Below are positions 39,654 through 62,041 of a stretch of 64,000 nt of DNA, one piece after another. Made by a program: the position numbers and the translations under genes. The DNA is from Nesterenkonia ebinurensis (GTDB lineage Bacteria; Actinomycetota; Actinomycetes; Actinomycetales; Micrococcaceae). The DNA lies in the NCBI RefSeq assembly GCF_008711175.1, contig NZ_VWNF01000048.1, positions 62,001-126,000 on the forward strand, given 5' to 3'. The notes beneath the pieces are model-generated. The model was given only the letters and a program-made list of their open reading frames with translations, searched no databases and was not told where the DNA came from. How positions within the stretch are numbered: the first letter of the stretch is position 1; every line of letters starts with the position of its first letter.

Positions 39654-40976
39654 TTACAGGGACCTGCCCCATTGACCTTTATTGGACCTGACAAGGGCCT
39701 TTCTCTGGAGCTTGGTCAAGGTAGAGAGCACCTGCGAGATGGGCAGCCCGGCGACCTCAGCCAGCTTGCCTGGGGTGGTGAGCCGGCGCACTGGCAGGGC
39801 ATCGTAGACCCGAAGCTCCAGATCGTTCAGCCTGTCTTCGGGATGCTGATCTCGAGTTTCGGGCTCCTGGTCAGCCAGCGGCAGGCTCAGCTGCTCTGCC
39901 AGTTCCGGTTTGGGCCCGTGGTGATGACTGAACTCGATAGCCTCACCCGTTTTTCCCGGAGCCGGCTCCACCATGAGCTGGACAGCGTCTGCTGCGTCGG
40001 TGACCAGCTGTGCCGGAGTCTCACGCAGCAGCCGGTGACAGCCTGCGGAACTGGCCGAGTACACGCTGCCGGGAACTGCGCCCACCGGCCTGCCGATGCC
40101 CAGCGCGTGATGGGCGGTGGACAGTGCCCCGGAGCGCCAACGGGCCTCCACCACCACAGTGGCCGCGGCCAGGGCCGCGATCAGCCGGTTGCGCTGAAGG
40201 AACCGCGACTTCATGGGCGCCGAGCCCGGTGCCGTCTCACTGAGCACCACGCCATGGGTGAGGACACTTCGCAGCAGGGACTCATTGCCGGCGGGGTAGA
40301 GCCGATCCACTCCCCCTGCGAGCACAGCAACGGTAGGGGCATCCCCTGGATCCTTCGCCGCAAGTGCTCCCCTATGAGCGGCAGCGTCGATCCCGTATGC
40401 CCCGCCTGAGATCACAGTGATGCCGTGTTCGGCGAGCTGACGGGCATTCTCCCAGGCGAAGCGTCCGCCGTAGTCGGTCATCTCCCTGGAGCCGACTATC
40501 GCTACGCTGCGCGGGATACCTGGCAGTCGCTGCGTCAGGTCAGCATAGGGATCTTCAGAGCCGGGTGCCATACGGAACCAGAGGCACAGCGGAGCCGCCG
40601 CACCGAGATCGTTCAACTGGGCAGGCCACATCGGATCCTCTGGGACGAGCACCCCGCCGCCGAGTCTGTGCAGCGAGCTGATCATCCGTCCCTGGTCGAT
40701 CTGGCCCAGTCGGGTGCGCCAGCGCTGCAGCCCCTCGGCCAGCTGCCGCTGGGGTTTGGTCAGTCCGGCAGCCTCAGCCGCCGCACTCACCGCCTGCTGA
40801 TCGGCGTCAGGAGGCGCAGCCTCGGAGGTGATGAGCCGATGCGCGGCAAGCGGTCCCAGCACCTGGACAGTCAGTGCTCCCAGCAGGTCGCCGGGTTCGA
40901 TGAGCCTGCTGAGCTCGGCCCGCATCCGCCGCACTTCTGAGCAGGCCAAGTCAATACTGGCACCCACCGAAATCAC
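39654..40976 (-). CDS. dprA: DNA-processing protein DprA
   Basis: A 440-residue Rossmann-like protein that loads RecA on incoming single-stranded DNA during transformation. Conserved motifs are SVAIVGSREMTDYG, ISGGAYGIDAAAHRGAL and NRLIAALA. The C-terminal ~65 residues form a DprA winged helix. It starts with GTG, overlapping the comM stop codon as GTGA, so the two genes are coupled. Confidence 0.93.
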   Translation of the reverse strand: MISVGASIDLACSEVRRMRAELSRLIEPGDLLGALTVQVLGPLAAHRLITSEAAPPDADQQAVSAAAEAAGLTKPQRQLAEGLQRWRTRLGQIDQGRMISSLHRLGGGVLVPEDPMWPAQLNDLGAAAPLCLWFRMAPGSEDPYADLTQRLPGIPRSVAIVGSREMTDYGGRFAWENARQLAEHGITVISGGAYGIDAAAHRGALAAKDPGDAPTVAVLAGGVDRLYPAGNESLLRSVLTHGVVLSETAPGSAPMKSRFLQRNRLIAALAAATVVVEARWRSGALSTAHHALGIGRPVGAVPGSVYSASSAGCHRLLRETPAQLVTDAADAVQLMVEPAPGKTGEAIEFSHHHGPKPELAEQLSLPLADQEPETRDQHPEDRLNDLELRVYDALPVRRLTTPGKLAEVAGLPISQVLSTLTKLQRKALVRSNKGQWGRSL

Positions 40977-41587
40977 CTCCTTGTCCCAGTGGACTGACGC
41001 AGCGCCATGGCGGCATCAATGTCCTCTGCCTCAGGGTGATCCTTGAGGCAGAGGTCGGAGATGGTCCAGGCGATCCGCAGCACTCGCACATATCCGCGCA
41101 GGGAAAGCTGGGCCCGGTCCAGGGCGGCATTCAGGGCGCGCAGGTCACCGGACGGAAGTCTCAGCTCCTTGCTGAGTACGCTCATAGGCGCTTCCGCATT
41201 CAGGCTCAGCCCGAAAGGTGCCAGCCGGTCAGCCTGGACGGCACGAGCCTGCGCCACCCGCTGGGCCACCTCTGCCGAGCTCTCACCGGGTTCGCCCAGA
41301 GCCAGGGCCGCTGATTGCGGCCGTTCGACCTGGACTTGGAGATCGATACGGTCCAACAGCGGTCCGGAGAGCCGCGCCAGATAGTTCCGCCGCTGTGCCA
41401 CCGTGCAGGTGCAGTACGCCCCGGAGCCGGTGTTGAGGCCGCAAAGACAAGGGTTCGATGCCATCACCAGCTGGAACTTTGCCGGATAGGTCACCTGGCC
41501 CGCGGATCGGTGCAGGGTGATCCGGCCGGTCTCCAGGGGCTGGCGCAGCGAGTCAAGCACACTGCGCGGGAATTCTGGTGCCTCGTC
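40973..41587 (-). pseudogene. comM: ComM/YifB family ATPase, C-terminal remnant
   Basis: About 204 C-terminal residues of a Mg-chelatase-type AAA+ protein involved in natural transformation. The homology starts abruptly at DEAPEFPRSVLD, the Walker B region, and continues through ASNPCLCG, CTCTVAQRRNYLARLSGPLLDRID and the ComM C-terminal domain to the stop. The Walker A half (about 300 residues) is missing; upstream codons come from foreign DNA whose frame happens to stay open to 42121. This is the left boundary of the accessory island. Confidence 0.88.
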
Positions 41588-41592
41588 GCCCA

Positions 41593-41660
41593 GTGGAAAG
41601 TACACCCCAAGTGGTTGCGACAATCCTAACCTGTCCACTTCGCTATGACCTTGGCGGTCC
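41593..41660. repeat. Element-end sequence at the comM junction
   Basis: GTGGAAAGTACACCCC begins here, 6 bases from the last comM homology. The ~65 bases that follow align without gaps to 57465-57530 (roughly 70% by eye, including GCGACAATCCTA against ACGACCATCCTA). It is probably the end of a lost insertion sequence. The rest of the gap up to 41831 shows no gene. Confidence 0.6.
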
Positions 41661-41831
41661 AAGCCGTCAGTACCCAGCATCCTGCCGTCATACCGGATAC
41701 AAACCAGAACCCTTGCGGCGGAATGACGCGCAGACGAGCAGCTCGGCACCAACCGTGTGGACAGGCATGCCTGCGCCATTGTCCGTGCCTGTGTCACCTG
41801 TCGGCGTCCTCGCGATTCGAGGTACTCGCGA

Positions 41832-44600
41832 TCAACGAAGCTGTGGGAATGTACCGGTGCCGAGGCCGACGCTCTCCAGATCATCCCAGAGCCAGTGTGC
41901 AGCCACGCTGGACGCCGGTCGAACGTTGGACATGTCATCAGCGCCTGTGCTGCTCCACCCGAGGCCGCCGATAGGCTCGCGGTTCTGATCGGCGAGCCAG
42001 GAACGAATTGTCTCGACAGTTGCAGAGTGGCGCTCCCACTCGTCTCCCCGCTCCCTCTTGGTTTGTGTGGCCACCGCCCGCCTCGATCTCGACCAGAGCG
42101 TGTCATTCCCAGACGGCGCAATTTGCGGCATCAATGCCATCGGTACCCGGATCACGGTCAAGCCCGGGATATTGCCGAGCCGGGAGTCGCTGTCGAACTG
42201 CATTTCCAGGATGACCCCGAATGGGGCAAGTGCTGAATTCGGCATGGACCATCCGAGCCTGGTGAACGTGCGGGTCATTGCCTCGTCGTAGGCTTCACAC
42301 GCGCCCCCGTAGACTTCAAGCTCGAACTCGGTGAGCCGCTGAGGCGAGTACAAGTCCCAGACCCAGCCACCTGTGGGCTGCGGCATATCCCTCTCTGGAA
42401 GGCGCGACCCCAGCTTGTCGAGTCCGGTCGCGCCGATCCACGCAACCAGATCTTCCAGCTCCGCGCCTGAGTACGTACTAGCGCTACCGAAGGAGACTTG
42501 AGCGTCGCGGTTACTTTCGATCGCGTCGAAGGCTTCCCCCGCGCGCGTCGAAACCTCGTCCGCCGGAAGGTGGCCGTGGAATAGGGGTCCGCGGCCAAGG
42601 AGGCGCCGAGCGAGGTCGAAACGTCGCTCTTGAGACCAGACTCCGCCCGGTGCGCCGAGGAACGGGTCGTTAGACAGCTTCTTCAGCGTCGCCTTCGCGA
42701 TCATCCTCTGCACCATGGTCCACGGCCACGCGTCACCCTCTGGTGCACCGCCGCTGATCCACGGCGCCCAGTCCGGCACTGCGGCCGGAAGCAACGGGTG
42801 TACACCTGGCGGAACCTCGGTCACGTAGTCGGTGGCGGGGCGAGACGTCGAAAATGCTACATCGATGCGATGGCCGGATACAGTGACACCTAAGCCGACC
42901 GGCCCCTGGACCACTGGAAAGGGTAGGACGCCGTCACCCATCTGGCCCAGAGCATCAGTCCAGGTGCGCAGGGCTCGGAGTAGGCGGGCTCCGCTCGTCT
43001 TGGCGTCGAGATCCTCGTGGCCCTCGGTGCGCCAGTCTCGGTGCCCGCTGAACGCCTGCTTGAGAATCCAAGAAGCCGCTCCTGGATTCCCCGCTACCCA
43101 CGTCCCCACCAGGTCATCCAACGACTCTGTGCTTGGTGCGCTAAGAACCGCCACAGCCGCCGCCCACCGCCACCGGTTGAAACTGAAAGCGTCGGCGACG
43201 ATCTCTTCTGGCGGGATGTCTCCGTCGAGAATCGACTGCGCTGCGAACCAGTGCTGGAAGATAGGCAGGGAGAACAGGACTGAACCATCGGGACCGTCGG
43301 CAATGAGCCGGCTTGAACGGGCGACCTGGCGGTGGTTGAACGACAGGCCATCCTTTCCCGCCCTGGTGAGTGCAATGGCGAGGTTGGCGAGGACAGACCG
43401 AGTCTCTCGTGATGTTACTGCCGATCGCTCCGTGCCCTTCTCGAGAGCGTTCTCGACCAACTCTCGAATCAGGTCTGCTTCTCCGCGGGGAGCCTCGTCC
43501 CGGCCAAGCATGGTTCCTGCCGCCAGGGCAAAGAAGGGCCTTGTCACCGTGGCTCGCATGTCCGCCGTCCAACTCCATGTGTCCCGTGACTTGCCGCCGG
43601 CAAGTTCGATGAGCTCAAGTGCCTCATCCTCAGTCAGGAGCGCCGCCGTTATCTCTTCTGTTGCAGTCGGGGACAAGATGCCTGGACGAGCCGTCAGCAA
43701 GATCCGGACATTGGGATACGTTCTGGCCAGCGTGCGGCTCGCCTCCAGCAAAGCCTGCGCCGTGGCCGGGTCGGTCTCGTCGAGGCCGTCGACCGCGATG
43801 GATGCGCCTCGTCCGTGGCGCCACACGGGCCCTAACTGCCGTTGGACCGCACCTTCGAGTGTCTGGCTGAGGAGGTCACGGGCGCTCAACCACACCGGGA
43901 ACGGCTCGTTATCACCTTCGACGAGATTCCTGATTGCGGCCCGGTGCCAAGTCTCTGCGGTTTCAGACTTGCCAGCCCCGAAGTCGCCGAGCAGCGCTAC
44001 AACGCTGCCGCACGGGACGTCCAGGATCTCAATCTGGTCGAAGTACGACACCAATGCGGCCTCGCCCACCTCAAACACCTGCAGGCGAACCGCCCGGCGA
44101 GCCTCAGACCGTTGCTGGAGAACAATTCCAAGGTCATCAGGGCTCAACGCCGCACCGGGTCCAACGATCTGCACGAGGAGGTCCCGCACATTGGCGCTGC
44201 GCTGCTGCGCCCAACGCTCACTCAGTTCGGCTCGGTCCCCATCGCCGAGCGCCGCGGCGATCGCCGGGTAAGTCAATTCCACCAGCCGCAAGGCTCGGGA
44301 CAGATGATCATCGGCGGAAATCCAGTCCTTTGACGCGGCCGACAAGGCTTCGTCGAGCCGTTTCGCCAACGGTCCATGGATCTCTTCTACCGGCCTGGCG
44401 AGCTCCTCAGCTGTAACAGTCTTGAGCCAGTTTCGGTAGGTCCGCCATCGGCACGAGAAATCGACCTTTTTGCGGACTCGCAACGACACCGTCCATCGAA
44501 AGGTCACCCTGCGAGCCAGTGCACGTGCCGCTGGTGCCGCGAGGCCTCCAAGGAGGCGTCCCCCGCTAGCAGCGATGGCAGGACCTTCCAAGCCAGTCAT
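41832..44600 (-). CDS. STAND/NACHT-like P-loop NTPase
   Basis: A 922-residue protein preceded by a GGAGGTGCT ribosome site. After a ~195-residue helical N-terminus, the Walker A is LLGDFGAGKS (203-212) and Walker B is IAVDGLDE (268-275), followed by a VRILLTARPG sensor segment (298-307). The remaining ~600 residues are helical with Trp-rich stretches and no recognisable repeats or effector domain. Proteins of this build act as nucleotide-switched sensors in antiphage defence, which would suit its island position. Function is inferred. Confidence 0.75.
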   Translation of the reverse strand: MTGLEGPAIAASGGRLLGGLAAPAARALARRVTFRWTVSLRVRKKVDFSCRWRTYRNWLKTVTAEELARPVEEIHGPLAKRLDEALSAASKDWISADDHLSRALRLVELTYPAIAAALGDGDRAELSERWAQQRSANVRDLLVQIVGPGAALSPDDLGIVLQQRSEARRAVRLQVFEVGEAALVSYFDQIEILDVPCGSVVALLGDFGAGKSETAETWHRAAIRNLVEGDNEPFPVWLSARDLLSQTLEGAVQRQLGPVWRHGRGASIAVDGLDETDPATAQALLEASRTLARTYPNVRILLTARPGILSPTATEEITAALLTEDEALELIELAGGKSRDTWSWTADMRATVTRPFFALAAGTMLGRDEAPRGEADLIRELVENALEKGTERSAVTSRETRSVLANLAIALTRAGKDGLSFNHRQVARSSRLIADGPDGSVLFSLPIFQHWFAAQSILDGDIPPEEIVADAFSFNRWRWAAAVAVLSAPSTESLDDLVGTWVAGNPGAASWILKQAFSGHRDWRTEGHEDLDAKTSGARLLRALRTWTDALGQMGDGVLPFPVVQGPVGLGVTVSGHRIDVAFSTSRPATDYVTEVPPGVHPLLPAAVPDWAPWISGGAPEGDAWPWTMVQRMIAKATLKKLSNDPFLGAPGGVWSQERRFDLARRLLGRGPLFHGHLPADEVSTRAGEAFDAIESNRDAQVSFGSASTYSGAELEDLVAWIGATGLDKLGSRLPERDMPQPTGGWVWDLYSPQRLTEFELEVYGGACEAYDEAMTRTFTRLGWSMPNSALAPFGVILEMQFDSDSRLGNIPGLTVIRVPMALMPQIAPSGNDTLWSRSRRAVATQTKRERGDEWERHSATVETIRSWLADQNREPIGGLGWSSTGADDMSNVRPASSVAAHWLWDDLESVGLGTGTFPQLR

Positions 44601-47326: not shown

Positions 47327-47996
47327 ATGCTAATTACACAGCACAAGACGCGTCTCAGACCAAACTTTGGGAAGTCTTGAGTCAGCGCCTGCCAGGGATC
47401 GCCTAGTGTCACCGCCCGAGGTCCGCGCTTCGGTACTTAATTGAGCTACTCAAACTGCCTGACACTCGTCGCATCAGATTGGCCTCCATCGTCGTTTCAT
47501 GTGCGACCGGCTGTGAAATGTCGTAAATCATGATGAATATGTCCGGAAGCAGCGCCCAGAAAAAGGCCAAATTGCGAGGGACTTCATCTGGGGCTAGGCC
47601 TCGCTCCGACTATGCGCCTGCGATTCCACCACGTCGATCGATTCAATGCCGACTAGGAATTTCGGTTACCTTTGGTTTGAGGGCTTGTGTCGTCACATCG
47701 TCGCGATTAGGGAAACGCACAGGGTCCGACCGCCGCGGTCAGCGGAAGGAGTCCTCTCATCCCCAAGATTGTGCAGTAGAGCTGCGTGCAGTGTCGCTCG
47801 TAGATGGGGGCTCCATTGGTGCCGTGGTATATCCAAACAGCGGCGCGATCGCGCCAAAGTGGCAATGTGCGGAGCACTCTGTCAGCTTCCTCGGTCTGTC
47901 GCTCATCCCGTCGCGCAGCAATACACGCTAGGGTCGACTTACGTGGCCGTGTAGGCCTACGTGCGGTAGCGGGTTGGTCAAGGTGAGCGGGGTGGT
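47327..47996. other. Gene-free stretch upstream of the ImmA unit
   Basis: 670 bases. Frames of 100-133 codons on the plus strand (47530-47931, 47646-47954) have no ribosome site, no protein-like composition and overlap each other, so they are not called. Near the right end lies an inverted repeat that may be an operator. Confidence 0.5.
47940..47963. promoter_or_regulatory. Imperfect inverted repeat, possible operator of the XRE-ImmA unit
   Basis: TACGTGGCC-GTGTA-GGCCTACGT: the arms are complementary apart from one inserted base, 34 bases upstream of the first gene. XRE-type regulators commonly bind such sites in their own promoters. Confidence 0.35.
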
Positions 47997-48314
47997 ATGG
48001 AGCTGAGCTTCCAGTCTCCTACCCTGCGTGCCTATTGGACCGACCCAATCCCGGGAGACTTGGACGCAGATGAAATCGAGGCAGGCAAGCAGGTCCTTGA
48101 GAACCTCGCAGCTGCATCCACTTTCGAGGAACTCTGCTTTCTCTACGAACTCGGTTACAAGGCCGGTGCGGTCACCTTTGATGATGGGGCGCGGGTAACC
48201 ATTAGCTGCCTCGTCGAGGCCTCCCGTGTCCGCACTGAAAACGGCCGAGTTGATTTGTCGAGAGTCACCCGCGTCCAATTGGTCTCGATCAATAAGTTAG
48301 GTGGTGCCGCATGA
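47997..48314 (+). CDS. Small partner protein of the XRE-ImmA gene
   Basis: A 105-residue acidic protein (WTDPIPGDLDADEIEAGKQV near the start, FEELCFLYELGYKAG mid-chain). It overlaps the following gene by 4 bases (ATGA), so the two form one unit, as in toxin-antitoxin or repressor-antirepressor pairs. No known toxin fold is recognised; it could be the target or partner of the protease. Confidence 0.6.
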   Translation: MELSFQSPTLRAYWTDPIPGDLDADEIEAGKQVLENLAAASTFEELCFLYELGYKAGAVTFDDGARVTISCLVEASRVRTENGRVDLSRVTRVQLVSINKLGGAA

Positions 48315-49417
48315 CGGACATTTCTTTCGAGCCGCGTTGGGTTTCCGCGCCTGGAGACACGATCTTGAACGCGCTACAACGGCGCCTGTGGTCGGTAGAG
48401 GACCTCGCCGATCAACTCGACATGCCCGACCCCGAGGTGCGCCGCATAGTCATCGGTGAGAGTGAAATCGGTGCCGACCTCGCCGACCAGCTCGCGGCGA
48501 TCCTCGGCGGCTCCGCTGACTTCTGGCTTACCCGCGAGCAACGGTACCGCGAGGGGCTCCGGGCGCTCGGCCTGGATGAGATCTTCCAGCGTATGCCGAT
48601 TGATCAGATGGTCACCTTCGGCTGGATCAGATCCCTGGGTCACGAGTGGCGCGACCGCGTAGCGGCCTGCTCAGCGTTTTTCGACGTAATCGATGCCGAA
48701 GACTGGAACGCCCGCTACGGCACCGCGGTCGAGCAGAAGACGAAGTATCGGGCCTCCGACGCTTTCAAGCCCGATGAGGCGGCCGTCTCCGCCTGGCTGC
48801 GCCAGGCGGAGATCCAAGCTGACGCTCTGCCCGTCGCGGGCTGGGATCCCGCGGCGGTGCACGCCGTGGTCCCGGCCTTGCGCGCCCTCAGCCGCCAGCC
48901 CGACCCGGAACAATTCATCCCCGAGCTGCAACGCCTCCTTGGATCCGCCGGCGTGGCAGCGGTCGTCGTGCGAGCTCCGAAAGGCTGCCCGATCAGCGGT
49001 GCCGCATTCCGCACCCGGTCTGGCAGGGCTACGGTCGTCCTTAGCGTGCGTCACCTGGCCGATGACCACTTCTGGTTCTCGCTATTCCACGAGCTTGGCC
49101 ACCTACTCCTTCACGATGTGCAGGAGCCCGTTCTCGACGACCTTGACAGCCCTTCCGAAGACAGTTCCGAACAAGAGGCCAACGACTTCGCCTCCCGCAC
49201 GCTCGCTAATGGCGTCGTCTCCGCTCTATCGACCACGCGGTCCACCGAACCAACGATGCGTGCCGTCGTGGCCGCCGCCTCCCAAGCCGGAATCGCCCCT
49301 GGTATCGTCGTTGGCCAACTCCAGCATGCCGGCATCATCGGACATCACCAATTCAACCGGCTCAAGCGCCGCTACCGCTGGGACGGTGTCACCCTGAGAA
49401 CCTCTCGTAAACCGTAG
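48311..49417 (+). CDS. XRE-like HTH / ImmA-IrrE family zinc peptidase
   Basis: A 368-residue protein combining an N-terminal HigA-like helix-turn-helix (residues 18-75, ending GGSADFWLTREQRYREGL) with a C-terminal ImmA/IrrE metallopeptidase. The zinc site is FHELGHLLLH (His260, Glu261, His264), and a downstream EQEANDFASRTL supplies the third ligand. Such fusions act as self-controlled regulators or antitoxin-type proteins, sometimes cleaving a repressor. It ends 29 bases inside the 3' end of the convergent downstream gene. Confidence 0.85.
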   Translation: MTDISFEPRWVSAPGDTILNALQRRLWSVEDLADQLDMPDPEVRRIVIGESEIGADLADQLAAILGGSADFWLTREQRYREGLRALGLDEIFQRMPIDQMVTFGWIRSLGHEWRDRVAACSAFFDVIDAEDWNARYGTAVEQKTKYRASDAFKPDEAAVSAWLRQAEIQADALPVAGWDPAAVHAVVPALRALSRQPDPEQFIPELQRLLGSAGVAAVVVRAPKGCPISGAAFRTRSGRATVVLSVRHLADDHFWFSLFHELGHLLLHDVQEPVLDDLDSPSEDSSEQEANDFASRTLANGVVSALSTTRSTEPTMRAVVAAASQAGIAPGIVVGQLQHAGIIGHHQFNRLKRRYRWDGVTLRTSRKP

Positions 49418-50315
49418 GACTCTTCTGCCAATTGCAGACCGCATCCTCAAACACGTCGGGCGTAATTCCAGCCACTGTGCCAATGTCCAGCAGAGTACGC
49501 TGCATATCACGCGCGCTGCCAACGTTTGGGTCGCCGTTGATGAGTAGACAGGCCCCGTATAGCGGACCGCCGTTCGGCACCAGGTAGGAGTGCGGGGGAC
49601 TCAACTCCAGTAGCCCGAGCCGCTGCAGCGTGGTGAGGTAGTCGAAGCGGCCCACCCGTCCAAATCGCCGTACCGTGCGCAGCTGCCGGAACAGAGCATC
49701 GAACCGTTCCTCAGGCGATAGCTTCGCTAGGCCAGCGAACCGCACCTCGTGGTCACCTCCGGCACTCAGCACCCACTCGACGTAGGACTGGACGACCGCA
49801 CCGGTGCCGCCCTCCGACCAAGCGTCAAGGCTCTCATACTTACGGTGGTTACCAAATCTGCCGTTTCCGGCTCGAATCTCACCCTGATGCGCCTCGAGCC
49901 ATAACCGAAAGGCGATCGGATCGCCGGCGGTCTCCTCCCATGTCCACCGCTGCCCGTCGCCGAGGCGCCCGTAGACTTCGCGAGCATACTGCCAGCCAGC
50001 GGTGCGATGGTGACCGAAGTGGACGAACAGGAACACCATCCACACTGCCTCGTCATAGTTTCCTGCGTCACGATGGATGAGCGCAGCCTTCAACGGATCA
50101 AAGGCTACATCCATTGGATCGGCGCGGGCTGGATCGAGGTCACGGGACTGGAGGTGCTGAAAGTAGCGCACGCGCTGCTCCGAATCGATGATCTGCTCGA
50201 CCAGGGTCTCCCGCACCTCATCGGCGACAATCCCCGGCAGCGGACCATTAGCCGCCTCGTAAGCTGCCAGGCCCGCGCCAATCCTGGCAGCCGCGACCGC
50301 GTAGTTCGACCTCAC
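49389..50315 (-). CDS. Alpha-glutamyl/putrescinyl thymine pyrophosphorylase-like protein (clade 3)
   Basis: A 308-residue protein. FDPLKAALIHRDAGNYDEAV, VFLFVHFGHHRTAGWQYARE, GRFGNHRKYESLD and the FGRVGRFDYLTTL region match proteins annotated as alpha-glutamyl/putrescinyl thymine pyrophosphorylase clade 3, a family predicted from comparative genomics to replace a pyrophosphoryl group on 5-hydroxymethyl-pyrimidine in DNA with an amino compound. It overlaps the synthase-like gene upstream by 4 bases (ATGA), so the two are coupled. The family name is from memory; activity here is inferred. Confidence 0.7.
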   Translation of the reverse strand: MRSNYAVAAARIGAGLAAYEAANGPLPGIVADEVRETLVEQIIDSEQRVRYFQHLQSRDLDPARADPMDVAFDPLKAALIHRDAGNYDEAVWMVFLFVHFGHHRTAGWQYAREVYGRLGDGQRWTWEETAGDPIAFRLWLEAHQGEIRAGNGRFGNHRKYESLDAWSEGGTGAVVQSYVEWVLSAGGDHEVRFAGLAKLSPEERFDALFRQLRTVRRFGRVGRFDYLTTLQRLGLLELSPPHSYLVPNGGPLYGACLLINGDPNVGSARDMQRTLLDIGTVAGITPDVFEDAVCNWQKSPTVYERFSG

Positions 50316-51274
50316 AATGCTGCGCCCCCTGCATGAATTCGGTCGGTCACATAGATGCCATAGAACTGATTCGCCAGCGACGCCGCGATCGCAGGCAGCC
50401 GCTCAGGGCGCCGACGCAATCGGAACGCGGCGAGCACCTTGGCCAGATCACCCCAATAGCCGTCCGCCAGCCCCTCGGCTTCATACTCCTCCGCCGGAGT
50501 CAAACGAATTCTCTGCTCCGCGTCCAGTAGCACCTCTACTGCCGCCCACGGATCGCCGGCCGGCATCGGCGGCATGGCTGCTGTGCTCTGCGCAAACCAA
50601 CCTTCATCGCGGTAGGCGTCGACTGCCGCTCGGTGCTCGTCGTACAGGTGAAGGCTGCCGACGAAGTGCGAGTAGGCGCCGAGCTTGGCGCCTACGCTGC
50701 GGGCCACGAGCTCCTGGAACATCGTGAACGCAAAGAGGTCGTGGGGCAGGCCGAGAAAGGCGTCGTTCGAACGCATGTGAACGATTAGCTCTAGTCGGCC
50801 CTCGCGCAGCAAGAACTGCAGCGTGCAAGTGCACGGCACGTCCTTGGCCCGGCTCAGGTCGTCAGCGTCGAACAGCTGTACCACCGCTTGGCGACTGTCC
50901 GGCCTCCGCTTCAGGATCTCGATCACGCGATTCAGCTGCCCGCTGCCACCTGAGCCGAACAGCCGGGGGCCGTAGGCGCCAAGCAACTGCCCGTCGATCG
51001 CCTCCCGCCGGTACTGCGGGACATAGTAAGCGACGTGAGCTACGTCATCGCTTCCGTGGAGATACCAACACAACTCGCCGAGCGCGCTCACGACAGTGGA
51101 GCGTCTGGCACTACGGCTGAGCCGCGCCAGAGGATCGGTCAACCGCAGCAACACAGCAGTCTCCTCCAGCGCCGGACCCCGCGTCGGGACAATTCGCTGA
51201 CCGTCCGCGATCAGACGGTCAAACACCGAGTGAAGGAGGTCGTCGAACGTGTCGGCCTCGAGCGTCGTTGACAC
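50312..51274 (-). CDS. Thymidylate synthase-like pyrimidine nucleotide hydroxymethylase
   Basis: A 320-residue ThyA-superfamily protein. The catalytic cysteine is Cys148 in DVPCTC and the folate/nucleotide-binding block HMRSNDAFLGLPHD (167-179) is clear. In ThyA the last residue of this block is Asn (PFN), which selects uracil; here it is Asp179, as in T4 dCMP hydroxymethylase and the CMP hydroxymethylase MilA, suggesting a cytosine nucleotide substrate and hydroxymethylation rather than methylation. It is too divergent to be the housekeeping ThyA. It heads a two-gene unit. Confidence 0.78.
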   Translation of the reverse strand: MSTTLEADTFDDLLHSVFDRLIADGQRIVPTRGPALEETAVLLRLTDPLARLSRSARRSTVVSALGELCWYLHGSDDVAHVAYYVPQYRREAIDGQLLGAYGPRLFGSGGSGQLNRVIEILKRRPDSRQAVVQLFDADDLSRAKDVPCTCTLQFLLREGRLELIVHMRSNDAFLGLPHDLFAFTMFQELVARSVGAKLGAYSHFVGSLHLYDEHRAAVDAYRDEGWFAQSTAAMPPMPAGDPWAAVEVLLDAEQRIRLTPAEEYEAEGLADGYWGDLAKVLAAFRLRRRPERLPAIAASLANQFYGIYVTDRIHAGGAAL

Positions 51275-51728
51275 AGCGCCCCGCCTCCCTACTGCCGTTG
51301 TAGCTTTTACAGGACAATCTACCGTTCCCAGGGTGGGGTGCTCCTGTCGAAGCGCCGACGACCGTCAGAACAGCGTCGTCGAAGCTGGCCAACCCGATCG
51401 CTGCGATCCGTAAGCTCACCCGCTCCACGCGGCATAAGCATCACCGAACGGTGCCTGCGTATTGAACCACCGGGTCTGCTGAAGGTTTGGTTGACCGCGG
51501 GGTTTATGCTGCAGCTGATCCCGGGTGGCCCAGGACTGCCGGTTGAACACCTCCGACGTAACGTCAACTTAGTTGACTGTTCGTTGGTCTTTGCATGCCG
51601 GGCCTGAGGCCGCCGTAGCCGCGGTTCAACCCGGAGCAAATCTTCATCCGGGCGACGTGGAAGGTCGAGGAAGAAGTCAGCGACTAAGGTGCGCCGCCCC
51701 GCCAGCCAATTCCCATAGGCTAAAAAGT
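51275..51728. other. Gene-free stretch with a possible gene tail
   Basis: 454 bases between divergent genes, containing both promoters. At 51619-51687 a plus-strand frame reads PRFNPEQIFIRATWKVEEEV and ends at a TAA. It may be the 3' remnant of a lost gene. No other feature is seen. Confidence 0.4.
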
Positions 51729-52238
51729 ATGCTGCCGCAGAATGTCGACCTCACTGAGATGCCCGTACCCGATCTGCTCACCCTGGAACGGCTGATCGTC
51801 AGTGAGCTGCACCGTCGGAACCTGGTTCGCACACAGAACAAGCCATTAGGCGATATCGCAGAAGCAGTGGTGCATAAGGCGCGCGGCGGAACGCTGGAAC
51901 CCAACTCCACGAAGTCGCACGACGTCACTACCCTTCAGAGCCAGCGGATCCAGGTCAAAGCAATGACACAGCGAAGGCGAGGGGCTTCAAGCAGATTCAG
52001 CCAGTTCCGGAGCTTGGAGTTCAACACTGCGGTCTTCCTGGTCTTCAGTGCAGACGACTTCAGCATCACGGAGGCCTATGAGACATCGGCCGATGTCGTT
52101 GAGCGAGAGGCTCGATACTCCGCGCACACCAACGCACGGCAACCGACACTGCGACAGGTTCGCACGCTGGGAGTGGACATCACCGAGGAGATGCAGACTG
52201 CCTACGAGGGCATCAAGGTCGGCGTCATCGAGTCCTGA
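51729..52238 (+). CDS. PD-(D/E)XK-like protein (DUF6998-type)
   Basis: A 169-residue protein starting at ATG 51729 (MLPQNVDLTEMPVPDLLTLE). The opening helix, then GDIAEAVVHKARGGTLEPNS and SHDVTTLQSQRIQVKAM, give the sequence Glu45 ... Asp65 ... Gln75-x-Lys77, a layout of restriction-nuclease-like folds. Uncharacterised proteins with this architecture are annotated DUF6998. It is divergent from the base-modification pair. Nuclease activity is a prediction. Confidence 0.6.
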   Translation: MLPQNVDLTEMPVPDLLTLERLIVSELHRRNLVRTQNKPLGDIAEAVVHKARGGTLEPNSTKSHDVTTLQSQRIQVKAMTQRRRGASSRFSQFRSLEFNTAVFLVFSADDFSITEAYETSADVVEREARYSAHTNARQPTLRQVRTLGVDITEEMQTAYEGIKVGVIES

Positions 52239-52873: not shown

Positions 52874-53176
52874 ATGACTTCTAGTGCGTCAGTGGAGCAC
52901 GATACTGCGACGGTGTGGACGACTGCTGCCGGCGCTCCTGAGCGGCTGGTCTGGGGTGGCCGGCGGTTCGTCGTAGTCACCAAACCCATCCCGTGGGTCG
53001 ATCGGACCGCCTGGTGGGAGTCGTCCCCTCGGGTGCCTGTCGGTGGGGCTTCTCAGCTGCTGGAACAGGCGATGTGGCAGGTCCAGGCCAAAGCTCTGGA
53101 TACCGGGGAACTCCTGATCGTCGACCTGGCAGTTACCGAGGGGCAGCACTGGCCGATCACTGCGGTCTTCGACTGA
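52874..53176 (+). CDS. DUF6504 family protein
   Basis: A 100-residue protein with the family's pattern RLVWGGRRFVVVTKPIPWVD-R-TAWWE in the middle and MWQVQAKALDTGELLIVDLA near the end. In actinobacteria it commonly sits between imuB (a Y-family polymerase homologue) and dnaE2; here it sits 11 bases before dnaE2, but imuB is absent. Its role in the mutasome is not known. It begins after a GGTGGTGGA ribosome site, just below the LexA box. Confidence 0.8.
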   Translation: MTSSASVEHDTATVWTTAAGAPERLVWGGRRFVVVTKPIPWVDRTAWWESSPRVPVGGASQLLEQAMWQVQAKALDTGELLIVDLAVTEGQHWPITAVFD

Positions 53177-53187
53177 AGCAGGGTGTG

Positions 53188-56100
53188 ATGGCTCAGTTCA
53201 CCCACCTCCACGTCGCCAGTGCTTTCTCCGCCCACTACGGCACCGCACGTCCCGAGACGTTGGTGGCAGCCGCTGATGCTGCTGGCGCTTCGGCGGCGGC
53301 GATCACTGACCGCGACGGCATCTACGGAGCAGTGCGGCATATCCGCGCCTGCATCGAAGCCGGCGTGGATCCCATCGTCGGGGCCGACCTGCAGGTCAGA
53401 CATGAGGACGAGCTCTCCGAGGTCACGGTGCTGGCCCACGGCCACAACCACGGTGCGGGGTGGGCATCCTTGGTGCGGCTGGTCTCAACCGCGCACTCCC
53501 CGCGACGTCGTGGGCAGCGGAAGCTCAACGGCACTGCTCACCGGTCGGCTTGGGTAGAGAAGAAGCACCTAGAGGGGTTCCTGATGGGCGAGGAGTCGCC
53601 TACTGCCACTGTGCTGCTGGGTCCGCGCTCCGATGTGGGCCAGGCCGTGCTGTCCGGGGAGCGCATACGGGCACGTGGTCTGTTGGAGGAATGGAAGAAG
53701 CTCTTACCCGGTGGCGTGGCGGTGGAGATCGTCTGTCACCAGACCCGACCTGGCAGTGCGGGGAGTCTGAAGCACGCTGCCGACATGCTGCAGCTCGCCT
53801 CGGTCACTGAGACTCCGGCGGTGCTGACCAACGCCGTGCGGTACCTGAGCCCTGATGATGCCCTCACCGGGGACGTCCTCGATTCCGCAGCGACCCTGCT
53901 GCCCTTGGGGAAGTTCCAGCCCCAGCCCAACGGGCAGGCATGGCTGAAGCCCCCGGAGGTGATGCACCGGCTGGCCTACGAGGTCACCGAGTACGCCGGT
54001 CTGCGCCGGGACAGCGCGGTGGATCTGCTGAGCACCACCGAGCAGGTAGCGGAACGGTGCCTGTTGGACCCGGAGTCCGATGTGCAGTGGCGCAAGCCGA
54101 AGGTCCCGGAGCTTGAGGTCATCGGCGTGGAGGATGACCCGACCCGAGTCCTCTCACAGCGATGCGAGGTCGCCCTCGGTGAACGCTACCCCGACGTGAA
54201 TGGGCAGGGTTTGGCTGCTCTGCGTGACCGTCTGCAGATGGAGCTGGGCACGATCACCTGCTTCGGGTTCCAGACCTACTTCCTGGCAGTGGCCGATGTG
54301 GTGTCCCTGATCCGAGGCATGGACGTGAGGGTCCAGGCCCGGGGCTCCGGGGCCGGGAGCCTGGTGAACTACCTGCTCAGGGTCTCCAATGTGGACCCGG
54401 TGGAGCACGACCTGCTCTTCGAACGGTTCCTGGGCAATAAACGCTCCACGCTGCCGGATATCGACATCGACACCGAGTCAGCCCGCCGACACGACGTCTA
54501 CCGGAAGATCTTCGACCACTACGGCCACCACCGGGTGACCCTGCTGTCGATGCAGAACGCCTATCGGGCCCGCGGTGCCGCCCGCGACGCCGGCCTCGCC
54601 CTCGGGCTGGAAGAGTCCCAGATCGACCAGATCGCTGAGAACATCTGGCGGTTCAACGCTCGCGACTTCCGTGAAGTCCTCTCTGAGAAGCCCGAGCTGC
54701 GCGACCTGGCTGAGCTCGTGCACACCGAACCGCGGCTGGACACTCTGGTGGATCTCACCGAGCGCCTGGACCGACTCCCCCGGCATATCTCCATGCACCC
54801 CTGCGGGGTCATCCTCGGCGACAGCGACCTGCTCTCGATCACCCCGACCCAGCCGAGCGGGATCGGGCTGCCGATGAGCCAGTTCGACAAGGACGACATC
54901 GACGACATGGGCCTGCTCAAGCTCGACGTCCTCGGAGTGAGGATGCAGTCGACCATGGCCTACGCGGTGAACGAGATCATCCGCATCAACGGCCCCAGCG
55001 CCGCCGTCGAGGGCGGACTGCCGGTGGACGCTCCCTATGTCTCAGCGGAGGGGAAGATCGACCTCGATGAGATCCCCAAGAACGACGAGCCCACCTTCGC
55101 AGCGATCAGGACGACTCATACCTTGGGCATGTTCCAGATCGAATCCCCGGGCCAGCGGGAACTGCTGGGCAAGCTGCAGCCTGACCGGTACTCGGACCTC
55201 ATCGCGGATATCTCGCTCTTCCGGCCCGGGCCGATGAAGGGCAACATGGTCACCCCGTTCGTGGAGCGCAAGCACGGGTATCAGCGCATGGACTACCTGC
55301 ATCCCCGGTTCGCACCGTTCCTGCAGGACGCCTACGGGGTGGTGATCTATCACGAGCACGTGCTGCGCATCCTCCACGAGACCATGGGCGTCTCCCTGGC
55401 TGAGGCCGACGAGATCCGCCGGTCCATGGAACGCGACGTCGAATCCATCGAGGCGGGATTCCGGGCACGCACCGCTGCGCGCACCGACCACCAAGGCAGA
55501 CGCCTGTTCAGCGATCGGCAGATCGAGAAGATCTGGCAGACGCTGAAGGGCTTCGGCAGCTTCGGGTTCTGCAAGGCGCACGGTGCGGCCTTCGCTCTGC
55601 CCACCTACCAGTCCTCCTGGCTCAAGACCCACTACCCGGTGGAGTTCCTGGCCGGGATCTTCGAGCACGACCCGGGCATGTACCCCCGGCGGCTGCTGAT
55701 GGCCGAGGCCCGAAGGATGGGGATCACCCTGCTGCCCCTGGACGTCAACGCCTCCACGGACGTATACCACGTCGAGCGGCTTAATGGCGGAAAGAAAGGC
55801 ATCCGGCTCTCGCTGCGCGACGTCAAGGGCATCACCGGAGCCGAGCTGCGGCGCATCGTCGAGGGCCGGCCGTTTGAGTCGATCACCGACTTCTACCACC
55901 GGGCACGGCCCTCCCGGCCGCTGATGCGCAACCTCGCCGCCCTCGGAGCGCTGGACAGCCTCACGACCGATGAAGAGAACTCGACCAAGCGCGGAGGCAT
56001 CATCGCCCATGTCCGCCAGCTCACCGCAGCTTCCAGGCGAGATCCGGCCGAGGAGGTCCCAGGGCAGCTCTCGCTGTTCGACGACCGGGCTCTCATCGAC

Positions 56101-56553
56101 CCAGCAGCACCCGAACCGACACCGCAGGAACGCGTTGGAGCCTCCCTGGATCTCCTCGCTGCCGAGACCGAGGGGCACGTGATGGATCTGTACCGGCTGA
56201 TGCTCGATGACCTCGGAGTCACTGCCGCGGAGGACCTGCTCACCGTGCGCAACAACTCAGAGGTGCTGGTGGCCGGCATCCGCGTGGCCACTCAGACTCC
56301 ACCCATGCGCTCGGGCAAGCGTGTCGTGTTCATCAGTCTCGACGACGGCACCGGCTGCTCTGATGCGACGTTCTTCACGGACGCTCAGGAGCAGGCCGGT
56401 CCTCTGCTGTTCGGCACCAAGCTCATGATCATCAAGGGCCGCACTCGGCGCACAGGTGATCGAGGTATCTCCATCCAGGCTGAGGATGCCTGGGACCTGA
56501 AGCAGATGTGGACTGAGTGGAGTTCTCAGCGGGCCTCTGGCGTGAGAGCTTGA
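53188..56553 (+). CDS. dnaE2: Error-prone DNA polymerase III alpha subunit DnaE2 (ImuC)
   Basis: A 1121-residue C-family polymerase for damage-induced translesion synthesis. The start at ATG 53188 gives FTHLHVASAFSAHYG at the N-terminal PHP domain. The catalytic motif LPDIDID lies at residues 422-428 (three aspartates), with ARGSGAGSLVNYLL before it. The helix-hairpin-helix and OB regions follow (VLVAGIRVATQ, FISLDDGTG). It is shorter than replicative DnaE1 and lacks the beta-clamp-rich tail, as in the DnaE2 group. The LexA box upstream supports SOS control. Confidence 0.9.
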   Translation: MAQFTHLHVASAFSAHYGTARPETLVAAADAAGASAAAITDRDGIYGAVRHIRACIEAGVDPIVGADLQVRHEDELSEVTVLAHGHNHGAGWASLVRLVSTAHSPRRRGQRKLNGTAHRSAWVEKKHLEGFLMGEESPTATVLLGPRSDVGQAVLSGERIRARGLLEEWKKLLPGGVAVEIVCHQTRPGSAGSLKHAADMLQLASVTETPAVLTNAVRYLSPDDALTGDVLDSAATLLPLGKFQPQPNGQAWLKPPEVMHRLAYEVTEYAGLRRDSAVDLLSTTEQVAERCLLDPESDVQWRKPKVPELEVIGVEDDPTRVLSQRCEVALGERYPDVNGQGLAALRDRLQMELGTITCFGFQTYFLAVADVVSLIRGMDVRVQARGSGAGSLVNYLLRVSNVDPVEHDLLFERFLGNKRSTLPDIDIDTESARRHDVYRKIFDHYGHHRVTLLSMQNAYRARGAARDAGLALGLEESQIDQIAENIWRFNARDFREVLSEKPELRDLAELVHTEPRLDTLVDLTERLDRLPRHISMHPCGVILGDSDLLSITPTQPSGIGLPMSQFDKDDIDDMGLLKLDVLGVRMQSTMAYAVNEIIRINGPSAAVEGGLPVDAPYVSAEGKIDLDEIPKNDEPTFAAIRTTHTLGMFQIESPGQRELLGKLQPDRYSDLIADISLFRPGPMKGNMVTPFVERKHGYQRMDYLHPRFAPFLQDAYGVVIYHEHVLRILHETMGVSLAEADEIRRSMERDVESIEAGFRARTAARTDHQGRRLFSDRQIEKIWQTLKGFGSFGFCKAHGAAFALPTYQSSWLKTHYPVEFLAGIFEHDPGMYPRRLLMAEARRMGITLLPLDVNASTDVYHVERLNGGKKGIRLSLRDVKGITGAELRRIVEGRPFESITDFYHRARPSRPLMRNLAALGALDSLTTDEENSTKRGGIIAHVRQLTAASRRDPAEEVPGQLSLFDDRALIDPAAPEPTPQERVGASLDLLAAETEGHVMDLYRLMLDDLGVTAAEDLLTVRNNSEVLVAGIRVATQTPPMRSGKRVVFISLDDGTGCSDATFFTDAQEQAGPLLFGTKLMIIKGRTRRTGDRGISIQAEDAWDLKQMWTEWSSQRASGVRA

Positions 56554-57709: not shown

Positions 57710-58870
57710 ATGGGTGGGACTCACGAACCAGGCATGACCGATGATCCGAGCGCTTCCCCTGGACCGAAAGCGTCCAATAGACCGACAAATCGAATTTTCT
57801 TGCTCGGTGCCGGATTCTCCAAACCTGCGCGCCTTCCATTGGCGGACGAGTTGCTCGACCAGGTCCTAACCGTTGCGCGATCGCACTGGTCTATCAATGG
57901 ATCCAGCCACCTGGAGCGCGATCTCGATCACTATGAACAGTATCTGGCCGACACTGAACCGGGCCGCCCATTCGATCTTGAAGAATTCAGCGCGTGGCTT
58001 GACTGGGAGCACATGCTTCCACTGCGCGGCTCGGACACTTTCTCTGACGAAGGTAACCAGTCAACACTGCAACTCCGGTGGGCCATCGGTCACGTCTTGC
58101 ACCAGGCGACACCGAAGGTGCTCCCGGAGGTCTACCTTGAGTTCGCCCGCCGACTAACGACCACTGACATAGTGCTGACGTTGAACTACGACCTGGTGAT
58201 GGAACGAGCGCTCACCGAAGTCGGCTTGCCTTACCGCCGATTCCCGAAGCGCTACTCCGAGGTGGGTAACCGAAGCGCGATCGTTGACTACCAGCATCCC
58301 CCGGAGCTTCTACTGTCCAAACTTCACGGGTCCCTGGACTGGGTGACGAAGCCACTGCACCCCAAAACGAACATTGCGGTTGACACCTTGGTGGAGGGCC
58401 CGAGATCAAGCAACGACCCGCTTCTTGCCCTCGGCGTCATTTCTGCCTTAGATCTCGACGCCCACTACGCCGATGACAACGGGTGGTGGCGAAGTCCACC
58501 TGTGCTGATGGCACCCTCAACCGCCAAGCCGCTAGCTCGGTCATCACTCGTGCCGCTCTGGGAGGGCATTCTTCCATGGGCATCCACGCGCGGTAGTTTC
58601 GCTGTAATCGGATGCTCCCTTCCGGTCGGAGACCCCTACGTCCGCCGAGTCGCCCACCACATCGCAACGGAGATAGGCGCAAGCATTGACCAGGGCAACG
58701 AGTTGCCGTGGCCGCAGACCACGATGAAAGTGGTCGATTACCAAACTGGCCGTCTAGGCATTCACCAGATTCGGGAGCGCTACCGCTTCATGCCGACTCA
58801 CCACACAGATTTCATTTTGGACGGGTTCAGCTTGGACACATTGGACCAAGTCGTTCCGCCTCTGCACTAA
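57710..58870 (+). CDS. SIR2-domain protein (putative NAD-consuming defence effector)
   Basis: A 386-residue protein with a SIR2-like fold: FLLGAGFSKPA (33-37 is GAGFS), TLNYDLVMERAL for NAD binding, KLHGSLDW with the catalytic-type His, APSTAKP and VIGCSLPVGDPYVRR at the end. These are the motifs of the SIR2_2 group found in Thoeris ThsA, DSR and prokaryotic Argonaute-linked effectors that deplete NAD+ on phage infection. There is no fused sensor domain, so a partner is expected. ATG at 57734 is an alternative start. Confidence 0.82.
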   Translation: MGGTHEPGMTDDPSASPGPKASNRPTNRIFLLGAGFSKPARLPLADELLDQVLTVARSHWSINGSSHLERDLDHYEQYLADTEPGRPFDLEEFSAWLDWEHMLPLRGSDTFSDEGNQSTLQLRWAIGHVLHQATPKVLPEVYLEFARRLTTTDIVLTLNYDLVMERALTEVGLPYRRFPKRYSEVGNRSAIVDYQHPPELLLSKLHGSLDWVTKPLHPKTNIAVDTLVEGPRSSNDPLLALGVISALDLDAHYADDNGWWRSPPVLMAPSTAKPLARSSLVPLWEGILPWASTRGSFAVIGCSLPVGDPYVRRVAHHIATEIGASIDQGNELPWPQTTMKVVDYQTGRLGIHQIRERYRFMPTHHTDFILDGFSLDTLDQVVPPLH

Positions 58871-59163: not shown

Positions 59164-60021
59164 TTATGAAACGACTACGCAGACGAAGGAGAGGCCGGAC
59201 TCGGTCCGCGAAGTGAGGTCGCCTTCCAGGCCGCGCGGGTTTTCTATCCTCTGGTCAGGGTCGTAAACAAGCGCAACGATGGCACTGCACTCTGGATGCT
59301 TCGGATAGCGGCCGGCATCCACCAGAAGTTCCTCACCAAGCTTACTTGCCGTCAGATTGGCTCTGGTCATCTTAGTTTCGACCACCACACCGACCTCCGG
59401 CATAACGAAGTCGACCCTTGAGTTAGAGCCCGCGCGAGAGGGCACGTAGTCCTCTGGTCTCACATCGTCAAAGAGGGCTCGCAGTAATGCCTCGACCACA
59501 ACTTGTAAATCATGCTCGTCCGCAATCGCCTCTCCTACCCGCCACTGCTCGCGACGTCGCTGGAGGACTTGCATGAAAGTCGGTAGTCGGCGCAGTACCT
59601 CCGCGAGCTCGTCCGCCACGGTTTCAGCCGATGATTTCGTAGGGGCGGCCTCCAGTAAAATACTTCGTTGCTTCTCCAAACGCCCGCGGACGCTCTTGAA
59701 TGGGTACTGCCAGCGTCCCATTGGAAAACTACCATCGTAAGCCTTGAGTACGGACTCTTGTCGCGGATCATCAAGAAACTTGGAAACGCCTGGACTGAAA
59801 ACATTGCCATCGCGTTGATCATCGAATCGATTCACTGCATCGCCCACAAGCAGGCGCCTGGCTCGAGCGTGCCAGTCACGGTAATCGCGTCGCACTTGAC
59901 CCACCTCTTGCATGGTGGGAGCTGGTTCGTCCTGCAGCATCGACATCGCCTGTTCGAGAGCTTCGGACTCAACAACTAGACTCTCGAATTCACTGGGTCG
60001 CGGCGCGGGGATGCTACTCAT
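59164..60021 (-). CDS. PD-(D/E)XK nuclease-like protein
   Basis: A 285-residue protein starting MSSIPAPRPSEFESL at 60021. The N-terminal ~190 residues are helical. The C-terminus has the nuclease signature SRVDFVMPEVGVVVETKMTR, giving Asp204, Glu215 and Lys217, then ASKLGEELLVDAGRYPKHPE and RIENPRGLEGDLTS. This end is common in uncharacterised defence-island proteins. The gene converges with the SIR2 gene across 293 bases without a gene, so the two are not in one operon, though they may work together. Confidence 0.7.
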   Translation of the reverse strand: MSSIPAPRPSEFESLVVESEALEQAMSMLQDEPAPTMQEVGQVRRDYRDWHARARRLLVGDAVNRFDDQRDGNVFSPGVSKFLDDPRQESVLKAYDGSFPMGRWQYPFKSVRGRLEKQRSILLEAAPTKSSAETVADELAEVLRRLPTFMQVLQRRREQWRVGEAIADEHDLQVVVEALLRALFDDVRPEDYVPSRAGSNSRVDFVMPEVGVVVETKMTRANLTASKLGEELLVDAGRYPKHPECSAIVALVYDPDQRIENPRGLEGDLTSRTESGLSFVCVVVS

Positions 60022-60271
60022 AAAGACCATAATAGAGAGTGCCACCGACATGCAGTGAGCGGTGTCGAGCACCGAACTTGCAGGAGAGAAACACTCACTG
60101 GGATGAACCAAACTTGCTTCCTACCTTCAGCAAGCGTTCACCCAACCTGTCCTGCTTGATCGAGGTCAGTTCCAGATGGGAAAAGGTCGAGGTGAATGAG
60201 TCTTCCTTGACCTGTGGCGCAACTGATGGCCGCTGATCTAGCGCGAGGGTGACCAGTAACTCTGGATCGAG

Positions 60272-61657: not shown

Positions 61658-62041
61658 TCAGTGGACCAATGCACCATCGACAGAGATCCGAGCTCCATCA
61701 TTGACCTCGCCGCGCTGCTGGTCGCGACGTTGACGTTGCTCCCACTCTCGTAGCCGGACTCGGGCGAGTAGGACCAGACTGACGGGTCCCATGATGGTGA
61801 ACTTCATCGCGTTGTAGATGAACAGCAGCACCAGCAGGTTCAACGACCCTGGTCCACCATCTTCGATGAGGCCACGGCACATAGTCGCGGCGAACAGATA
61901 TGGGATCGCCAGCAGCATTGCTGGGATACCCCATTTGAGTCCTCGGCGCGTGCGGATGAGGTCGAGGAGGATGTTGGTCGGCATATAGCGACGTAGGAAG
62001 TAGCGGGTGTGGACGCTCGCGGCCCAGATCAGTCGGATCAT
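61658..62041 (-). CDS. Small membrane protein of the conjugative region
   Basis: A 127-residue protein starting at 62041 (MIRLIWAASVHTRYFLRRYM). Two hydrophobic segments are visible (LLAIPYLFAATMCRGLIE and LVLLFIYNAMKF-IMGPVSLVLLA). Proteins of this type recur next to TraA-type relaxase genes in actinobacterial mobile elements and are often misnamed sulfate permease. It lies downstream of the relaxase gene on the same strand. Confidence 0.65.
   Translation of the reverse strand: MIRLIWAASVHTRYFLRRYMPTNILLDLIRTRRGLKWGIPAMLLAIPYLFAATMCRGLIEDGGPGSLNLLVLLFIYNAMKFTIMGPVSLVLLARVRLREWEQRQRRDQQRGEVNDGARISVDGALVH

Follow-up and report, generated by a model that had tools for sequence, protein, structure and literature searches.

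The 64,000-nucleotide stretch of DNA analysed here (the window) covers positions 62,001 to 126,000 of contig NZ_VWNF01000048.1 of Nesterenkonia ebinurensis (assembly GCF_008711175.1), and the subject of this analysis is a group of four adjacent genes in it, arranged in two convergent arms. The minus-strand arm encodes a thymidylate-synthase-superfamily protein of 320 residues (THY, 50312-51274; PF00303), followed by an aGPT-Pplase3/ADDT-like protein of 308 residues (PPL, 49389-50315; PF18746 and PF18724). The plus-strand arm encodes a small HigB-like protein (47997-48314), for which AlphaFold2 modelling and Foldseek comparison suggest a RelE-superfamily fold, followed by a HigA-like helix-turn-helix (HTH) domain fused to an ImmA/IrrE zinc peptidase (the HTH-ImmA protein, 48311-49417; PF06114, PADLOC model PD-Lambda-2_B). 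A previous interpretation of the window, referred to below as the sequence-only reading, had described THY and PPL as a translationally coupled pair, and both open reading frames (ORFs) were confirmed, on the minus strand. The junction of the two genes is GTGA, in which the GTG start codon of PPL overlaps the TGA stop codon of THY, making the proposed coupling plausible. The reading frames of the small gene and of the HTH-ImmA gene overlap as ATGA, and the 3' ends of the convergent PPL and HTH-ImmA genes overlap by 29 bases.

The arrangement of these genes was compared among relatives of PPL, 112 of which were found by scanning a single genome for each species; the counts given here use the best 80 of these 112. 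In 78 of the 80 relatives, THY is found upstream of PPL and on its strand; the two exceptions are L058, where only 100 bases separate the start of PPL from a contig end, and L046, where THY is not detectable. In L006 (Microbacteriaceae PS02333), THY and PPL are joined in one open frame (L006:7032-8939). When the ORFs are clustered, the HTH-ImmA gene is found on the opposite strand, convergent with PPL, in 79 of the 80 relatives, and the only relative that does not have it, L061, is cut off by a contig end. The small gene, of about 110 codons, is present just upstream of the HTH-ImmA gene in 78 relatives, being absent from L061 and L062. PPL and the protease gene overlap at their 3' ends, by any number of bases, in 34 of 79 loci. 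The other clusters present in at least five loci are mostly shadow frames of the recurrent genes or are found in no more than eight loci, and the gene clusters of this latter frequency are mostly without annotation. Of the 26 PPL loci in the IMG/VR contigs, some of which are near-copies or come from the same contig, 25 also hold THY, 25 the protease gene and 23 the small gene, and the misses are at contig ends.

The borders of this unit are visible at the DNA level when the window is compared with the locus of Amnibacterium flavum M8JJ-5 (L004). In the 16.9 kb compared by blastn (word size 11, E 1e-5), similarity is found only between positions 47945 and 51274, corresponding to the four genes and about 50 additional bases, with a DNA identity of 81.6%; the PPL proteins are 89% identical. 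The pairwise distances of the four proteins are also correlated (r of 0.76-0.87 in 74 loci including the window, compared with a maximum of 0.16 in 999 permutations per pair), a correlation to which vertical descent may contribute and which would arise from joint transfer and from joint descent alike. The DNA borders shared with L004 are the sharper evidence of co-inheritance. Together with the linkage, these borders identify a mobile cassette of four genes as the real unit, which replaces the two-gene unit of the sequence-only reading.

The 79 PPL relatives on the tree (L006 left out) span seven phyla: Pseudomonadota (55), Actinomycetota (10), Bacteroidota (5), Acidobacteriota (3), Chloroflexota (3), Verrucomicrobiota (2) and Planctomycetota (1). 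Within Actinomycetota the PPL family is rare, with matches in seven of 396 genomes, two of them full-length (including that of the window) and five partial and weak, the latter from one family; in three of these five aGPT-Pplase3-like cases (L142, L143 and L144), no THY, protease or small gene is found in the short flanks that were fetched. PPL matches occur in eight of 72,556 plasmid records, and the same eight are the first eight rows for the protease, while a tblastn search with PPL at 1e-5 finds no match in 50,697 phage records.

THY matches PF00303 with 92 bits. The genome (3.74 Mb in 50 contigs) encodes an ordinary ThyA separately, on contig C22 (415 bits), and THY is therefore not the housekeeping enzyme. 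When a profile of 31 THY members is compared with solved structures, the first match is MilA (5jnh; 237 bits, E 2.6e-69, positions 7-290), the CMP 5-hydroxymethylase of mildiomycin biosynthesis (5JNH, 5B6D); among the best 60 of 127 matches, the ordinary thymidylate synthases have at most 100 bits and the T4 dCMP hydroxymethylase (1b49) has 69 bits. The match to MilA extends into its helical C-terminal part, which ThyA and the T4 enzyme lack (PMC5175136). THY also has a match in PADLOC, to GajB (E 0.048), which is taken as chance.

The residues that are expected to determine the specificity of THY were examined by aligning THY proteins to E. coli ThyA with MAFFT, in 76 rows for the window THY and 75 of the 78 relatives (the fused protein of L006 and the split proteins of L011 and L077 were dropped). 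Asp179 of THY aligns with Asn177 of E. coli ThyA and is an aspartate in all 76 rows, confirming the asparagine-to-aspartate switch on which the sequence-only reading was built. The active Cys148, Arg168, Asp171, His209 and Tyr211 are invariant, and the catalytic glutamate is kept in 75 rows, with a gap in the remaining one. Aspartate at the base-selecting place goes with cytosine in MilA, BcmA and the T4 enzyme (PMC5175136, excerpt). In a comparison of contigs, positions 177 and 147 best separate those with modified cytosine, and aspartate at the 177 place marks such contigs (PMC8670742, excerpt); position 147 is a threonine, and not a histidine, in all 76 rows of THY. Because of the aspartate at the place of Asn177, cytosine is more likely than thymine to be the base that is recognized by THY. 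Thymine or uracil as the substrate is rejected on Asp179. A self-contained unit of two genes for the hypermodification of thymine or uracil would fit the family name of PPL (thymine pyrophosphorylase), and it conflicts both with the aspartate at the base-selecting position and with the four-gene linkage, which makes it very improbable.

The nature of the sugar is suggested by two further positions. Ser169 of THY, conserved in all 76 rows, is equivalent to Ala176 of MilA, and Arg128 (arginine in 71 rows, lysine in five) is equivalent to Lys133. The CMP preference of MilA rests on Ala176 and Lys133, the deoxynucleotide enzymes carry serine and arginine, and the A176S/K133R double mutant of MilA prefers dCMP (PMC5175136, excerpt). 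Deoxyribose, and hence dCMP, is predicted for THY because serine and arginine replace these two residues of MilA, and CMP, which could be proposed from the similarity to MilA, is disfavoured on the same grounds. At position 145, three residues before the active cysteine, an aspartate is found in 46 and a glutamate in 23 of the 76 rows (aspartate in the window), where E. coli ThyA has a leucine. In the T4 enzyme, the equivalent Asp145 is required for the hydration step (PMC6400193, excerpt). A hydroxymethyl rather than a methyl product is predicted because of this acidic residue, present in 69 of the 76 rows. THY shares the predicted substrate and reaction with the T4 gp42 dCMP hydroxymethylase (1B49, 6A9B), together with Asp179, the catalytic glutamate and this acidic residue, and differs from it in the low score of the profile match. 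From these residues, THY is most likely a dCMP 5-hydroxymethylase.

PPL matches the Pfam family aGPT-Pplase3 (PF18746) over nearly its full length, with 286 bits (cut-off 25; E 3.8e-85; profile positions 3-279 of 279), as anticipated in the sequence-only reading, and it also matches the amino acid:DNA transferase family ADDT (PF18724) with 183 bits (E 6.9e-54). The AlphaFold2 model is all-helical, with a pLDDT of 95.4. Three of the first five rows of the Foldseek search of this model against the PDB are AGOG-type entries (1xqo, 1xg7 and 1xqp; probability 0.35-0.51), where 1xg7, titled as a hypothetical protein, is presumably an AGOG as well. Among the viral models, four matches reach E 0.001; annotated ADDT-domain proteins are at ranks 2 and 6, an endonuclease III is at rank 7 (E 0.021) and the helical domain of a 5-hydroxymethyldeoxyuridine (5-hmdU) kinase is at rank 13. 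The invariant stretches of PPL are FGNHRKYE (154-161), GR...FD (219-225) and ED..CNW.K (290-298). Family and fold suggest that PPL may be a transferase that handles flipped hydroxymethylcytosine in DNA.

The HTH-ImmA protein matches PF06114 with 42 bits and the PADLOC model PD-Lambda-2_B (PDLC03982) with E 1.6e-29, and its profile finds HigA structures for the HTH part (E 8.5e-11) and CapP for the peptidase part (E 4.5e-4). All 30 aligned proteins have the HExxH motif. For the small protein, no match above the cut-off is found in Pfam (best STAS_2, E 0.1), NCBIfam or PADLOC. Its AlphaFold2 model (pLDDT 86.5) has HigB of P. vulgaris as top match in Foldseek (probability 1.00, TM-scores 0.58/0.66, E 5.5e-3), with many RelE/HigB/YoeB-type toxins at lower ranks. 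The order of these two genes is the same as in PD-lambda-2, which has three components: a HigB-like gene, a HigA-peptidase (HigA-ImmA) fusion that is toxic alone, and a third gene required for defence against phage lambda; the HigB-like protein relieves the toxicity of the fusion (PMC9519451, excerpt). The small protein and the HTH-ImmA protein therefore resemble a PD-lambda-2-like, toxin-antitoxin-type pair, a likeness that for the small protein is one of fold only. The difference lies in the partners, which are THY and PPL in the cassette, whereas the third component of PD-lambda-2 is related to an antitoxin of phage P4.

It is conceivable that the pair of HTH-ImmA and HigB-like proteins acts as a mere switch of the CapH/CapP type, inducing THY and PPL during infection, such that the modification itself would be the weapon. 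The HTH and ImmA architecture, the match to CapP and the near-strict co-occurrence of the pair with THY and PPL would agree with such a switch. A simple repressor model would predict a motif shared by the upstream regions of both arms, and no common motif was found: in the comparison of 74 loci, 30 are above and 34 below the mispaired control, and the idea of a shared operator was dropped. As the HTH-peptidase of PD-lambda-2 is also toxic when expressed by itself, the switch is considered rather unlikely.

The pair could also be an ordinary addiction module, keeping a costly modification island in place and having no role in defence. This would suit toxin-antitoxin-like families as well as the occurrence on plasmids and IMG/VR contigs described above. 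It would also suit the loci in which the pair occurs without THY and PPL: a search with the protease profile gave 48 loci, 25 of them (L149-L173) with strong matches of E 1e-47 or better, and PPL is present in 23 of these 25, while the protease and the small gene are found without THY or PPL in L165 and L171 and, with weaker matches, in L174 and L175. The protease/small-gene pair can thus exist alone. Conversely, in all seven phyla, close relatives of PPL lack the protease at contig ends and nowhere else, which an addiction module hardly explains, and this alternative appears distinctly unlikely.

The interpretation that we favour is a mobile four-gene cassette in which hydroxymethylation and hypermodification of cytosine are joined to a toxin-antitoxin-type pair, probably for protection against phages; its probability is estimated at about one half. 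The analysis itself demonstrates the families of the proteins, the pattern of residues, the linkage of the four genes and their joint inheritance, and from these the substrate, the product, the sequence of steps, the trigger and the defence role are deduced. In the series of steps that we infer, THY would hydroxymethylate dCMP at C5, with methylene-tetrahydrofolate as the donor, a step that the residues described above support well. Kinases of the host, the cassette having none, would then carry 5-hydroxymethyl-dCMP to the triphosphate, which would enter DNA. PPL would subsequently decorate hydroxymethylcytosine in DNA, probably with an amino compound. Both the entry into DNA and this decoration are proposed from family and fold. 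The modified base might be a self mark or a snare for replicating phage DNA. By analogy with PD-lambda-2, the HTH-ImmA protease would be the growth-arresting part, checked by its HigB-like partner, and the pair would arrest the cell upon infection or when it meets wrongly marked DNA, with THY and PPL taking the place of the third gene. The connection with defence is made because of the PD-Lambda-2_B match and because of the protein domains treated in the DefensePredictor study: in the excerpt of PMC13092281, aGPT-Pplase is a predicted defence domain, untested there, and thymidylate synthase and 5-hydroxymethyluracil kinase domains occur in systems validated against phage.

A more specific form of modification-gated immunity is also considered, in which the bacterium would install a hypermodified cytosine by means of THY as dCMP hydroxymethylase and of PPL as a transferase of glycosylase fold that works without a separate kinase. 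The HTH-ImmA/HigB-like pair would read whether this mark is present or absent and stop the cell upon the replication of phage DNA that is without it. Such a system would follow the logic of restriction-modification, with a protease or toxin replacing the nuclease. We regard this form as doubtful.

Several observations weigh against the favoured cassette interpretation. The first is that the cassette encodes no kinase, either for hydroxymethyl-dCMP or acting on the hydroxymethyl group. As the sequence-only reading had remarked, no obvious DNA kinase is found in the cassette, nor does any kinase belong to the genes shared by more than 8 of the 80 relatives. The kinase profile HMUDK_hel (PF18723) has no match in the genome, in a weak search that gave no match in control genomes either. 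The P-loop motif is absent from PPL in 49 of 49 aligned members, which makes PPL itself an unlikely candidate for a missing kinase of the classical type. The T4 dCMP hydroxymethylase, by comparison, is accompanied by a nucleotide kinase and glucosyltransferases. The phage sets with ADDT/AADT and a 5-hmdU DNA kinase (M6, ViI and phiW-14) resemble the cassette through the PF18724 match of PPL and its fold similarity to ADDT-domain models, and they differ from it in that cytosine is predicted for the cassette, no DNA kinase is found and PPL has no match among the phage records; the M6 stretch L084, being unannotated, was left out of the analysis.

The kinase gap also bears on whether the product is in DNA at all. 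PPL could instead alter the small molecule, hydroxymethyl-dCMP or hydroxymethyl-CMP, to generate a free modified nucleotide that acts as a signal or as a toxic compound and that might control the HTH-ImmA protease. The genes found in more than 8 of the 80 relatives include no kinase to lead the nucleotide into DNA, and MilA, the closest solved relative of THY, serves the synthesis of a nucleoside antibiotic (PMC5175136, excerpt), both of which would fit. The residues of THY predict a deoxynucleotide, however, the family of PPL includes transferases with DNA as their substrate, and PPL has a weak fold likeness to DNA glycosylases (the AGOG entries and the viral endonuclease III mentioned above), so that a free nucleotide as the product is judged unlikely.

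The remaining points that count against the cassette interpretation concern the individual proteins and the published record. The acidic residue at position 145 of THY is absent in seven of the 76 rows, and the place of Ser94 of the T4 enzyme is taken by an alanine in THY, as it also is in MilA in that protein's printed alignment; in T4, Ser94 coordinates the catalytic water, and the S94A mutant keeps about 25% of the activity (PMC6400193, excerpt). Neither the model of PPL nor that of the small protein has a match at E 0.001 or better in the fold search against the PDB, and the small protein of the window is without a histidine that the majority consensus built from 53 relatives contains. Component C of PD-lambda-2 is not known to be present, THY, PPL and the two accessory genes being the recurrent partners of the pair, in a comparison made without a search with the model of component C itself. 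The ambiguity of the distance correlation and the negative motif comparison belong here as well. Finally, the literature searched shows no activity, modified base or phage phenotype for the cassette.

The two accessory genes are both absent from the window, whose ORF list has no gene between THY and PPL. A middle gene of about 270 codons is located between these two genes in 26 of the 80 relatives (for example L010:7219-8004), and its presence on the PPL tree requires at least nine changes. It carries an invariant NHN.Q.S motif. It has no match above the Pfam cut-off (26 members), none below E 0.6 among solved chains and none in PADLOC (two members). Its GLNPS and NHNLQSS motifs, which we took to be similar to those of uracil-DNA glycosylases, suggested such an enzyme, and this guess failed: hhalign comparison with 10 Ung-like, two Mug-like and one family-4-like target, sorted into these groups by their motifs, gives a probability of at most 1.1%, and Pfam searched to E 10 shows no uracil-DNA glycosylase in the 26 members, so that no such function is claimed. 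The second accessory gene, of about 100 codons, encodes a DUF4031 protein and occurs in 24 of the 80 relatives (for example L035:6501-6803 and L027:6836-7141); five of five scanned members match PF13223. Among its 25 ORFs, 20 are upstream of THY and five are between THY and the middle gene. The DUF4031 profile has no match at E 0.01 among the window ORFs of at least 40 residues. A further small gene is seen upstream of the HigB-like gene in eight of the 80 relatives, for example at L074:10397-10762 on the minus strand, where it has no Pfam or PADLOC match.

Divergent from THY, on the plus strand, is the gene of a DUF6998 protein resembling a modification-dependent restriction endonuclease (REase) (51573-52238; PADLOC E 3.7e-26). 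This is the divergent PD-(D/E)XK-like neighbour of the sequence-only reading; it is not part of the cassette, as blastp at 1e-4 finds no match to it in any of the 80 loci, L004 included, and its role as a restriction partner was rejected for this reason. Next to the cassette on this side is also a DnaE-type DNA polymerase III alpha subunit (52993-56553, plus strand), with PHP, NTPase, finger, HhH and OB domains. Farther on are a SIR2-like protein (57710-58870, plus strand) and a protein with a DpnII-MboI-type REase domain (59164-60111, minus strand), whose best PADLOC models are Argonaute-associated. The part of a helicase at 62213-64000 (minus strand; AAA_30, with a sub-threshold TraI match), cut by the end of the window, may belong to a conjugative relaxase and suggests a conjugative island. 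On the other side, a protein of 922 residues (41832-44600, minus strand) with a Walker-A-like GDFGAGKS motif looks, by eye, like a NACHT/STAND NTPase; it has no match in Pfam, NCBIfam or PADLOC at the limits used. The C-terminal part of the Mg-chelatase domain of comM is found at 41312-41587, within 40973-42121 (minus strand), and the N-terminal part of comM is on contig C2 (G000:C2:24228-25217; L198). A large island, whose extent on contig C48 would be about 98 kb if it is unbroken, thus seems to be inserted in comM. Among 142 ORFs flanking the cassettes, PADLOC matches at 1e-10 (25 of 86 families) include KwaB, SduA, MzaA, IetA and methyltransferases, a count that has no control and for which enrichment is not claimed; integrases and ordinary genes are present in the flanks too.

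Among the titles and abstract openings searched, no paper describes this set of four genes. The DefensePredictor systems name the same domain families as are found in the cassette, and an overlap of the gene sets is possible, as judged from the excerpt of PMC13092281. Hypermodified bases are known mainly as a counter-defence of phages. If the favoured interpretation is correct, bacteria would use the modification of cytosine at the nucleotide level in immunity, by means of a cassette spread over seven phyla, and if PPL works without a DNA kinase, this would be a new route to base hypermodification. With its small size (3.3 kb), its sharp borders and clear predictions, namely dCMP as the substrate, an additional derivative of cytosine in DNA and a phage phenotype for which both halves are required, the cassette is directly testable.

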